Below, piece after piece: positions 4,408 through 8,027 of a stretch of 37,931 nt of DNA. This stretch comes from Ruminiclostridium sp. (GTDB lineage Bacteria; Bacillota; Clostridia; Oscillospirales; Ruminococcaceae), in the NCBI GenBank assembly GCA_017625405.1, contig JAGALB010000043.1:217900-255830 (forward strand). Direction: 5' to 3'. A model generated the notes under the pieces. It did not search any database, was not told the origin of the DNA, and saw only the letters and a program-made list of their open reading frames with translations. The translations under genes and the position numbers were made by a program. Numbering within the stretch: position 1 is the stretch's first letter; every line of letters starts with the position of its first letter.

Positions 4408-5679
4408 ATGAAGAAAAAGTATTTTTCAATTTTTGCTTCCTTCCTTGTAATTGCCGGAATGCTGTCAGCTTGTTCCGTTGAAGAAGAGACTGAAGTCGAA
4501 GAAGAAGAGGAATTCGAAGCTCAGACCCTTACCGTTGAGGATATGGAATATTACACCCGTTTTAAGGATGCGGGTATTTCCATCAACGTATATAACTGGG
4601 GTGAATATATTTCTACCGGTGCGGATGAAGGTACGCTGAACGTAAACGCGGAATTTACTGCGCTTACAGGAATCAAAGTAAATTATACAAACTATGCCAC
4701 AAATGAAGAACTTTATGCAAAGCTCAAGGGCGGCGGAGCAACTTATGACATAATTATTCCATCTGACTACATGATCAGCAAGATGATCAAGGAAAATCTC
4801 ATTCAGAAGCTTGATTTCGGTAACATTCCGAATTTCAAGTATATTATGGAAAATTACCGCAATCAGGATTACGATCCTCTGAATGAATATTCCGTTCCTT
4901 ATACATGGGGTACGGTCGGTATCATTTATGACACAACCATGATTGATATGAACGAAGAGGATATTGACTGGGATCTTCTGTGGAACGAGGACTATGCAGA
5001 CCAGATTCTTATGTTTGATAACCCTCGTGATGCGTTTGCCATTGCCGAAATTATGTGCGGCTACTCCCTGAATACCGAATCTGAAAAAGAACTCAAGGAA
5101 GCAGCTGAAAAGCTCAAGGAGCAGAAAAGCATCGTTCAGGGTTATGTAATGGATGAAATCTTTGATAAAATGGGTGCCGGTGAAGCACTTATCGCACCTT
5201 ATTATGCCGGTGATGCTCTGACAATTATGGATGAAAACGAGGATCTTAATTTCGTTGTTCCTAAGAGTGGTACAAACCTGTTTATTGATGCAATGTGTAT
5301 TCCTACCTGTGCTAAACAGAAGGAAGCAGCAGAAATGTATATCAATTTTATGTGCGAGCCTGATATTGCTTTCTCTAATATTGATTATATCTGTTATTCA
5401 ACTCCTCATAGTGCTGCTTTTGAAATGCTTGATGAGGAAACACAGAATGATCCGATTTCTTACCCGGATGCAGAGCTTATAGCTTCAAAATCCGAAGTTT
5501 TTGTTAATTTATCCGATGAAGCAAACAAGCTTATGCAGGATTTATGGACAGAAATGAAGTCCGCTGAGGATGAAAACACCAATACTTTGTTTGTTCCTGT
5601 TTTCCTTCTCGTATGTATAGGAATTATAATTTTTGTACTTGTAAGACGTCACATTAAAAATAAAAAGGATATATTCTGA
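4408..5679 (+). CDS. potD: Spermidine/putrescine-binding lipoprotein PotD with C-terminal membrane helix
   Basis: This is the extracellular substrate-capturing component of the polyamine importer. The 423-aa protein has a lipoprotein signal peptide ending LSAC (Cys22), an acidic linker (residues 24-34), then the SBP fold with the polyamine-binding signature YNWGEYI near residue 61 and FDNPRD near 206. Unusually, the last 34 residues hold a hydrophobic helix (about 394-411, FVPVFLLVCIGIIIFVLV) followed by a basic tail RRHIKNKKDIF. This predicts a second membrane anchor with its C-terminus inside. The frame is continuous, so this is not a frameshift. The start is set by GGGAGGG. It is the last gene of the operon before a terminator. 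Confidence 0.93.
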   Translation: MKKKYFSIFASFLVIAGMLSACSVEEETEVEEEEEFEAQTLTVEDMEYYTRFKDAGISINVYNWGEYISTGADEGTLNVNAEFTALTGIKVNYTNYATNEELYAKLKGGGATYDIIIPSDYMISKMIKENLIQKLDFGNIPNFKYIMENYRNQDYDPLNEYSVPYTWGTVGIIYDTTMIDMNEEDIDWDLLWNEDYADQILMFDNPRDAFAIAEIMCGYSLNTESEKELKEAAEKLKEQKSIVQGYVMDEIFDKMGAGEALIAPYYAGDALTIMDENEDLNFVVPKSGTNLFIDAMCIPTCAKQKEAAEMYINFMCEPDIAFSNIDYICYSTPHSAAFEMLDEETQNDPISYPDAELIASKSEVFVNLSDEANKLMQDLWTEMKSAEDENTNTLFVPVFLLVCIGIIIFVLVRRHIKNKKDIF

Positions 5680-5802: not shown

Positions 5803-6585
5803 ATGAAAAACTTATTAAAAACTGCTGCAGCTGTTCTTGCTGCGGTAACAATCTGCGCAGGCTGCAGTCAGGTAAAGCCTAATGAAGTATTTACTGTTGC
5901 TGATCTCGATAATAAGGTAATCGGTGTTCAGCTCGGTACAACAGGTGATATTTTCGCAAGTGATATCGAAGGAGCTACAATCGAAAGATACAAGAACGGT
6001 GCTGATGCGGTTCAGGCTCTCAAGCAGGGAAAGGTTGACGCTGTAATTATCGATAACGAACCTGCTAAGGTGTTTGTTTCAAAGAATGATGATTTAACAA
6101 TTCTCGAAGAAGAATTTGCAGTAGAAGAATATGCGATTGCAATCAAGAAGGGTAACACAGAGCTTACAGAAGCTATTAACGGTGCGCTTGCAGAACTTAA
6201 GGCTGATGGCACACTTGATACAATCACAGCAAACTGGATCGGTGAAGAAGCAGGTATGCACCCTTACGTAACTCCTGAAGGAACTACATACCCCAACGGT
6301 ACACTTGTTATGGCAACAAACGCACAGTTCCCGCCCTATGAATCACTTGACGGTTCTGAGGTAATCGGCTTTGACCCCGATATGATGAGAGCCGTATGCG
6401 ACAAGCTCGGTTATGAGCTCAAAATCGAAAATATCGACTTTGACTCTATTATTGCAGCTGTTGATTCAGGTAAGGCTGATGTAGGCGTAGCTGGTATGAC
6501 AGTAACAGAAGACAGACTCAAGAATATTGATTTCTCCGATTCCTATACAACCGCTACACAGGTTATAATTGTAAGAAAGAACTGA
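5803..6585 (+). CDS. Polar amino acid-binding lipoprotein (SBP_bac_3), apparently circularly permuted
   Basis: This is the extracellular binding protein of an ABC amino acid importer, 260 aa. The signal peptide ends with the lipobox CAGC (Cys21). Residues 30-149 correspond to what is normally the second half of a family 3 SBP: TVADL, then GVQLGTTGD, the acidic VIIDNEPA strand, YAIAIKKGN, and the terminal helix ADGTLDTITANWIG. Residues 150-165 form a linker. Residues 166-260 correspond to what is normally the first half: LVMATNAQFPPYE, GFDPDMM, the Arg-containing GMTVTEDRLKNIDFSD, and TQVIIVRKN at the C-terminus. The ligand-contact motifs of both lobes are present, in swapped order. Permease and ATPase genes follow at once. 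The substrate is likely a polar amino acid or cystine and cannot be named from the sequence. Confidence 0.9.
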   Translation: MKNLLKTAAAVLAAVTICAGCSQVKPNEVFTVADLDNKVIGVQLGTTGDIFASDIEGATIERYKNGADAVQALKQGKVDAVIIDNEPAKVFVSKNDDLTILEEEFAVEEYAIAIKKGNTELTEAINGALAELKADGTLDTITANWIGEEAGMHPYVTPEGTTYPNGTLVMATNAQFPPYESLDGSEVIGFDPDMMRAVCDKLGYELKIENIDFDSIIAAVDSGKADVGVAGMTVTEDRLKNIDFSDSYTTATQVIIVRKN

Positions 6586-6586
6586 T

Positions 6587-7315
6587 ATGTTTAATAATAT
6601 TTTAAGTGCCATATCTGCATTTTTTACGGATTTTGGCGATTCATTCTATGAAAATTTCATTGCTGAGGATCGTTGGCAGTATCTTGTCAGCGGTCTTGGC
6701 AACACCCTTGTAATAACTGTTCTTTCAGTAACTATCGGTATTATCCTCGGCTTTTTAATCGCAGTTGTGCGTGCTGCATATGATAAGACAGGAAGATTCG
6801 GCTTCCTCAATGTAATTGCAAAGATTTATCTTACTGTTATAAGAGGAACACCTGTTGTAGTTCAGCTTCTTATTATTTACTTTGTAATTTTTGCTTCTGT
6901 AAATATTGATAAGACATTTGTAGCCGTGCTTGCTTTTGGTCTTAATTCGGCGGCCTATGTTGCCGAAATCGTGCGTTCAGGCATTATGTCCATTGACAAT
7001 GGTCAGTTTGAGGCAGGCTCAAGCCTTGGTTTCAGTTATTCCCAGACCATGATAAGCATTATCATTCCTCAGGCATTCAAGAATGTTCTTCCTGCGCTTG
7101 CAAATGAGTTTATAGTTCTGCTCAAGGAAACCTCTGTTGCAGGTTACATTGCGATAAATGACCTTACAAAGGGCGGCGATACTATCAGAAGCCAGACTTA
7201 TGAGCCGTTACTTCCTTTGCTTGCGGTTGCGGCTATTTATCTTGTGCTTGTAATGTTGCTTTCCCACTTTGTCACTAAGCTTGAAAGGAGACTTTCAAAG
7301 AATGATAGACGTTAA
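6587..7315 (+). CDS. Polar amino acid ABC transporter permease (HisM/GlnP family)
   Basis: This is the membrane subunit of the amino acid importer, 242 aa. After a short N-terminal amphipathic stretch come about five transmembrane segments, beginning [17 protein letters not shown], the conserved entry of the HEQRo permease family. The ATPase-docking loop is [24 protein letters not shown] (near residues 142-165), and the segment [11 protein letters not shown] matches the family. The start lies 1 nt after the stop of the binding protein. The end overlaps the ATPase gene by 14 nt. Only one permease is encoded, so it probably acts as a homodimer. Confidence 0.93.
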
Positions 7316-8027
7316 AGGACTGCATAAATCTTTCGGGGATTTACATATTCTCAAAGGTATTGATGAATTTATCGAAAAGGGCGAAAAGGTTGTAATTGTA
7401 GGCCCTTCAGGTTCCGGTAAAAGCACATTTCTCCGTTGTCTCAATCTTCTTGAGAGACCTACTGAAGGTTCAATTTTCTTTGAAGGTGTGGATATCACAT
7501 CCAGTACAGAAAAAGAAGTAAATCTTATTCGCCGTAAAATGGGAATGGTTTTTCAGCATTTTAATCTGTTTCCTCATCTTACTATACGCAGAAATATTAC
7601 TCTTGCACCTGTAAAGCATAAGCTTATGACTCAGGAACAGGCAGATTCAATCGCTGAAGAGCTTTTGAAAAAGGTTGGTCTTTCTGATAAAGCGGACCAG
7701 TATCCAAATCAGCTTTCAGGCGGTCAGAAGCAGCGAATTGCGATTGCACGCTCTCTTGCCATGAATCCCGATGTCATGCTTTTTGACGAACCAACTTCAG
7801 CGCTTGATCCTGAAATGGTCGGTGAAGTTCTCAATCTTATGAAAGAGCTTGCCGATGATGGAATGACAATGGTGGTTGTTACTCACGAAATGGGATTTGC
7901 ACGTGAGGTTGCTTCAAGAGTAATGTTTATGGATGAAGGTAGGATTATAGAAAAATCTTCGCCGGACAAGTTCTTCTCAAATCCCGAAAATCCAAGATTG
8001 CAGGAATTTTTATCTAAGGTATTGTAA
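7302..8027 (+). CDS. Polar amino acid ABC transporter ATPase (GlnQ family)
   Basis: This is the ATP-hydrolysing subunit, 241 aa from the ATG at 7302. An in-frame ATG at 7269 would add 11 residues inside the permease gene. 7302 is preferred because the protein then starts [12 protein letters not shown], as in the family, and GAAAGGAG sits just upstream. Visible motifs are Walker A (GPSGSGKST), the Q-loop ([10 protein letters not shown]), signature LSGGQKQR, Walker B ([12 protein letters not shown]) and the switch His (VVTHEMGFA). The short form without extra domains is normal for glutamine/cystine-type importers. It overlaps the permease by 14 nt and the next gene by 1 nt. Confidence 0.93.

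Follow-up and report, generated by a model that had tools for sequence, protein, structure and literature searches.

The window analysed here, a stretch of 37,931 nucleotides of Ruminiclostridium sp. DNA, carries on its forward (+) strand an open reading frame (ORF) at 5803-6585. Profile, PDB and homologue matches identify its 260 aa product as a permuted family-3 amino-acid substrate-binding protein (SBP), a lipoprotein in the order C-part, linker, N-part (order A below). The ORF, its length, the lipobox and the motifs quoted in the original prediction were all found in the sequence as described there. Read from the sequence, a lipoprotein signal peptide (5803-5865, + strand) extends up to the lipobox cysteine C21 (ICAGC), followed by a short tether of residues 22-29 (5866-5889, +), which would lead from the lipid anchor to lobe II. 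In the A1 alignment, which comprises 64 rows (the window protein and 63 proteins from 62 of 80 named loci), the cysteine stands in column in 56 of the 64 rows, and the columns of C21 and D34 lie 9-14 residues apart in 62. The ordinarily second part follows as residues 30-149 (5890-6249, +; profile, NCBIfam, PDB and GlnH alignment) and presumably comprises the bulk of lobe II along with hinge strand 2 and lobe I's C-terminal helices. According to the alignment, a new linker of residues 150-164 (6250-6294, +) then runs from the old C-terminus to the old N-terminus. Residues 165-260 (6295-6582, +; profile and alignment) form the ordinarily first part, with lobe I, hinge strand 1 and the pocket residues F176, F213, T233 and R238.

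Directly downstream, Pfam identified an ABC importer permease (6587-7315, +; PF00528, BPD_transp_1) and an ABC importer ATPase (7302-8027, +; PF00005), so that the window holds the permease and ATPase expected in the operon of a polar amino-acid ABC importer. The ATPase ORF is listed as 7269-8027; its start was set at a chosen ATG, giving 241 aa, and the Pfam scan covered 7311-8024. A neighbouring SBP at 4408-5679 (PF13343/PF13416 matches) begins with a lipobox-like sequence and carries a hydrophobic stretch, FVPVFLLVCIGIIIFVLVRR, towards its C-terminal end, and may be anchored at both ends.

Swapped order of the two SBP parts

The product of the ORF at 5803-6585 passed the gathering cut-off of PF00497 (SBP_bac_3) with 129.2 bits (cut-off 26.4). 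The match fell into two stretches, residues 168-260 corresponding to profile positions 1-93 and, with the first part scanned alone, residues 75-148 to positions 56-132. Since these profile ranges overlap (56-93), Pfam by itself gives no clean swap. The swap was cleaner in NCBIfam, where positions 125-250 of 250 of TIGR01096 fell on residues 31-146 and positions 25-119 of 248 of the GlnH model on residues 166-260; the curated cut-off was reached by none of the 15 NCBIfam families listed (TIGR01096, GlnH, ArtI, ArtJ, HisJ and others). Aligning the two parts separately to profiles, a check proposed together with the original prediction, thus returned the second and first parts in swapped order, apart from the overlap of the Pfam ranges.

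Among PDB sequences, 116 distinct entries matched at E 0.001 or better, 60 of which were listed, and the swap was seen in all three alignments inspected (4zv1, 6svf and 4prs). In 4zv1, residues 8-104 of the chain aligned with query residues 164-259 and residues 109-233 with query residues 29-148. Only 6h30 had a best stretch covering both parts among the 60 matches listed, and a query consisting of the junction alone gave 73 PDB matches, of which, among the 60 listed, again only 6h30 had a best stretch crossing the junction. This entry is a GlnPQ-type protein with tandem SBPs fused to a permease: the junction-spanning query aligns with it in one stretch, but it contains two complete SBPs of ordinary order and no permutation, and it imitates the order of the window protein because it is a tandem two-SBP protein. 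E. coli GlnH, AncQR (4zv1) and the amino-acid SBPs 6svf and 4prs are homologous to the window protein over both parts and have the same kind of operon partners, but they are of ordinary order, whereas the window protein is rotated, with its termini placed in lobe II.

The ordinary N-to-C order of PF00497 was therefore not found in the window protein; Pfam, NCBIfam and PDB agree on swapped stretches. At the level of sequence, we regard it as confirmed that the ORF encodes a complete family-3 SBP with its second part ahead of its first. The junction of the old ends lies at residues 148-165 (nucleotides 6244-6297), in line with the original prediction. The same prediction had called the breakpoint exact and placed it at the hinge. 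Its exactness holds, as the chain ends 2-3 residues after V257 in 64 of 64 rows, but its site has to be revised to the loop past hinge strand 1, inside lobe II. Counting on without gaps from R238, which corresponds to GlnH R75, the chain end falls at about GlnH residue 97, which by the lobe limits we assume belongs to lobe II rather than to the hinge.

Conservation in relatives

Same-order full-length relatives, as sought by the homologue search that had been recommended, were present in many genomes. Of 71 genomes from the window's genus, 57 had a match at E 0.001, and at least 19 besides the window's own carried same-order full-length relatives of 59-87% identity. Wider samples gave matches in 158 of 297 genomes of the family (E 1e-20), 266 of 391 of the class (1e-25) and 19 of 348 of the phylum (at the stricter 1e-40), many of the matches in these three samples being ordinary SBPs. 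Judging by the names of the relatives, the class is presumably Clostridia. From 356 relatives found, 80 were kept as named relatives. Both permease and ATPase lie downstream in 76 of these 80, six of the 76 with the permease in the SBP's own ORF; in the remaining four the contig ends 274-716 bases away.

Most relative records are metagenome-assembled, which could point to an assembly or annotation artefact. We consider this extremely unlikely, because the same order recurs in many independent assemblies, some of them not marked as metagenome-assembled (among them Kineothrix sp. MSJ-39, Roseburia hominis An869 and Lachnospiraceae bacterium G11), and because the ORFs are intact, stand in an operon and are under purifying selection. 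The dN/dS of the window gene was 0.074 (0.083/1.121) against L062, 0.063 (0.147/2.321) against L063 and 0.081 (0.150/1.848) against L070, with dS near saturation in the latter two comparisons.

Residues of both parts are jointly conserved. All 64 rows of the A1 alignment share F176, F213, R238, T46, T47, I83 and D84, and 62 of them T233; together with T233, listed last, these residues align with GlnH F13, F50, R75, T118, G119, H156, D157 and T70, respectively, for which we assume the ligand roles of the GlnH pocket. The arginine and aspartate of an amino-acid pocket, roles that we assign to R238 and D84, are thus invariant. Glutamine specificity is not implied, as GlnH K115, H156, D10 and G119 are replaced by Q43, I83, N173 and T47; the pocket agrees with that of an amino-acid binder and differs from the glutamine set of GlnH. 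Conservation extends to the new linker, which is about 13 residues long and keeps Y155 in 62 of the 64 rows, G151 in 59 and P158 in 58, and the spacing from G147 to G166 is 19-20 residues in 58 of the rows (range 18-23).

These patterns bear on the idea that each part is a partial domain of its own, or that the parts pair between two molecules by domain swapping. The protein has one clamp's worth of residues, pocket residues of both parts are identical in all 64 rows, linker length is near-constant and the permuted SBP is kept with permease and ATPase in relatives, all of which makes that idea very improbable. The swapped profile matches, the same-order full-length relatives across many genomes and the jointly kept pocket residues instead bear out the true circular permutation that had been predicted. 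Of the two outcomes named in advance as speaking against it, a single normal-order profile stretch did not appear; as for the second, two domains that do not fold together, it is the sequence that argues for the parts forming one SBP.

From the observed order, conservation, operon and recurrence (see below) we infer how the protein would be built and work. The conserved linker would join the old N- and C-termini in lobe I, and both ends of the chain would lie in lobe II, in the loop that follows hinge strand 1. Despite the swapped order, the ordinary two-lobed clamp would most likely be formed, with the amino acid bound by R238 and D84, one from each swapped part, and delivered to the adjacent permease. 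The lipid tether would enter at lobe II, and the C-terminus would be the end of hinge strand 1. In some relatives (L048, L136), the C-terminus of the permuted SBP runs directly into the permease. In L119, a frame of 501 aa, the tether between the lipobox and the permuted SBP is more than 200 residues long and consists of TEA-type repeats.

Four cyclic orders

To describe the orders, three blocks were defined. Block N covers the beginning of lobe I plus hinge strand 1; C1, divided into C1a and C1b, covers the beginning of lobe II; C2 covers the rest of lobe II plus the last helices of lobe I. A block search was performed on the ORFs of the fetched loci, dropping those with a summed block score below 60 bits and identical frames. 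It yielded 169 non-redundant ORFs of order A (C1a-C1b-C2-N, that of the window), 52 of ordinary order (N-C1a-C1b-C2) with 11 more in which one or two weak blocks were missing, 41 of order B (C2-N-C1a-C1b) and 4 of order C (C1b-C2-N-C1a); these counts are not frequencies, since the loci were mostly gathered with permuted queries. The remaining ORFs were tandem arrays or mixed cases. Three of the four order C loci come from outside the window's class, within its phylum. The B pattern occurred in at least 35 of 391 class genomes, and all 20 of those fetched were indeed of order B.

A doubled query, in which the window protein was joined to itself so that any rotation matches in one piece, was run against 291 class genomes and matched in 191. 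Among the matches listed, 16 had their start at the A site and 12 at query positions 66-77, which is the B site; 5 were tandem arrays, and the others started at 109-141, as expected of ordinary order, except one fragment (a 165-aa frame) starting at 193. Order C was not seen among the doubled-query matches listed from these genomes. A cut inside N would not stand out clearly in the block scheme, although the doubled-query results make it improbable that such a cut is common. By extrapolation, the cuts would lie near GlnH residues 97-100 (A), 168-172 (B) and about 128-131 (C, by eye), all three inside lobe II by the lobe limits that we take to apply.

ORFs with the moved block present twice (C2-N-C1-C2) were not clearly found among the fetched ORFs; L232, a mixed case, comes from a contig of 4.5 kb.

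Number of origins

The most careful tree comprised 62 rows, with E. coli GlnH as its root. Neither tandem units nor many of the A rows entered it, and near-identical rows had been dropped in earlier trees. It required 4 changes for A, 3 for B and 1 for C, 8 in all, and its starred branches force 8 changes between ordinary order and the rest. The window's A clade had a support of 95/83. AU tests rejected a single origin of all 26 A rows (p 1.1e-13) and of all 10 B rows (p 6.8e-57), one clade of the two near B groups (p 5e-62) and a union of the two main A groups (p 7.6e-4), while the window's A clade and L213 as one clade were not rejected (p 0.064). These p-values may be overconfident with long branches, and although the definition of A and B rests on order, the sub-groups were chosen with a tree already at hand. 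In a quick tree of 113 rows, the labels needed 12 changes and the starred branches imposed a minimum of 3 on A, 3 on B and 4 on ordinary order; there, all B as one clade was rejected only at p 0.018.

Counts of changes carry no direction, but ordinary order is found at the root and also within genus g188, which favours a change from ordinary to permuted. A reversion inferred from the first tree, in which 15 ordinary rows were nested among permuted ones, was discarded, as with wider sampling the window's A clade stands alone; outside that clade, reversion of order is possible. The permutations at the three cut sites, all of which fall in lobe II by our placement, appear to have separate origins in Clostridia and related Bacillota. 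Neither this recurrence nor the two further cut sites formed part of the original prediction.

The permuted SBPs could alternatively be single cut-outs from tandem SBP-permease arrays (C-N-C-N-permease). Tandem arrays of the same half-order fused to permeases do occur in the window's genus, and the chain of a GlnPQ-type tandem aligns with the window protein in one stretch. The nearest array units, though, are only 31-35% identical to the window protein and stand apart from it in quick trees, whereas the nearest ordinary single SBPs reach 60.5% identity, so we consider an array stage unlikely. Arrays of 2-4 permuted half-order units, permease-fused where read, were noted in nine loci (L023, L024, L026, L027, L030, L031, L032, L227 and L285); the inner halves of such an array might combine into permuted units, or else into ordinary ones, in which case the outer halves would close a ring. 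Taken together, we hold it very probable that the window encodes a lipid-anchored, circularly permuted polar amino-acid SBP of predicted clamp fold, belonging to a family in which permutation recurred at three sites in lobe II.

Probable change of order at one locus in genus g188

A match to a permuted query was obtained in 74 of 78 genomes of genus g188. The 30 best-scoring loci comprised 20 of order B and 10 of ordinary order, a ratio that is not a frequency because these are the best-scoring loci of the 74 genomes. The 17 B rows of the genus form one clade (100/99) nested among its ordinary genes; a second B group of L194 and L197 (96/87) groups with the ordinary L250 (100/100).

Ordinary genes have the layout lipobox, tether, FTTVESGKLIMATN, and end with approximately LKILETPY...KYIPAEG. 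Permuted ones consist of lipobox, short tether, LKILDTAY...KYIP, tether and approximately EFTTIEEGKLIMATN, and stop soon after NEPAKAFV. The signal peptides of the 27 parsed genes (17 B, 10 ordinary) are alike, approximately MKT(L/F)xRIAAGxLSxALLLGMTSC, and differ from that of L246, a more distant ordinary gene of the genus. By eye, a near-identical hairpin follows the stop codon in 13 of 13 printed loci, and a stretch of GCGTAA type upstream is similar in about 7 of the 9 printed. As signal peptides and downstream hairpin are alike in both orders, the change in g188 probably took place in place. The comparison suggests that the last ~50 residues may have been relocated into the tether with the rest of the locus unmoved; the same outcome would be expected if the block had been copied and its original later lost, or if a tandem duplication had been trimmed. 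Duplication and trimming, the route suggested in the original prediction, would also fit as a possible origin of the window's clade.

With ordinary and permuted versions of one gene in one genus, L253-L272 and L273-L282 constitute natural pairs for comparison. In loci of both orders (L253-L256, L279 and L282), the ORF after the SBP opens with a zinc-ribbon-like CxxC...CPxC, and in L253 it continues into a membrane protein that we read by eye as a permease.

Possible reasons for the permutation and known systems

The permutation may be neutral, with in-frame relocations drifting wherever loops permit a cut. Ordinary and permuted genes co-exist in one genus and even in one genome (G072, with L041 permuted and L156 ordinary), and site A seems to coincide with the membrane insert point of glutamate receptors. 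The match to PF10613 (Lig_chan-Glu_bd) covers positions 62-113 of 115 and ends at residue 259; it scores 28.2 bits when the whole protein is scanned, short of the cut-off of 30, and 31.7 with only the second part. Since glutamate receptors presumably carry their channel insert at the point matching cut A with the order kept, this loop seems tolerant of breaks. Against neutrality, the 8 changes are concentrated at three sites, the permuted form persists widely and its linker is conserved; we hold the chances of the neutral reading to be even.

More tentatively, the three lobe II rotations may have arisen repeatedly, at least once in place, because moving the tether, and in permease fusions the C-terminus as well, from lobe I to lobe II is advantageous, a possibility that we regard with some doubt. 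The lipobox pattern is absent from 18 of 153 A-order ORFs, some of them because of wrongly chosen starts. About ten relatives have signal peptides without a lipobox, which favours neutrality and speaks against anchoring as a universal reason. Ten permuted SBPs with signal peptides lacking the lipobox cysteine were noted (L105, L108, L113, L114, L115, L116, L123, L124, L130 and L138), several of them labelled Blautia.

A natural circularly permuted, tethered SBP has been described in TpMglB-2 (Tp0684) of Treponema pallidum and in homologues of Gram-positive gut bacteria, named 'Type Ic / Cluster Bc', and the authors discuss whether anchoring might account for the topology (PMC4990184). TpMglB-2 is a Type I / cluster B sugar-binding protein with a permuted N-lobe and a fourth hinge crossing, whereas the window protein is of family 3; its Pfam matches up to E 1 included no sugar-binding type I family, which by sequence sets it outside Type Ic / Cluster Bc. 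No permuted family-3 SBP was found in the literature searched, which consisted of listings and the openings of abstracts, with subscription journals mostly outside. With a permuted SBP of another fold class already known, the recurrence and the apparent in-place change are the surprising part.

Natural circular permutations are usually regarded as rare, old, single events. Here, one family appears to hold several independent permutations at three sites, including sister species with both versions, so that origin, folding cost and functional effect of a permutation become directly testable. This bears on the design of SBP-based biosensors and raises the question of whether the membrane tether shapes SBP topology. 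In L223, a frame of 619 aa, a long segment that looks like a putative sugar-type SBP is fused ahead of the permuted amino-acid SBP unit.
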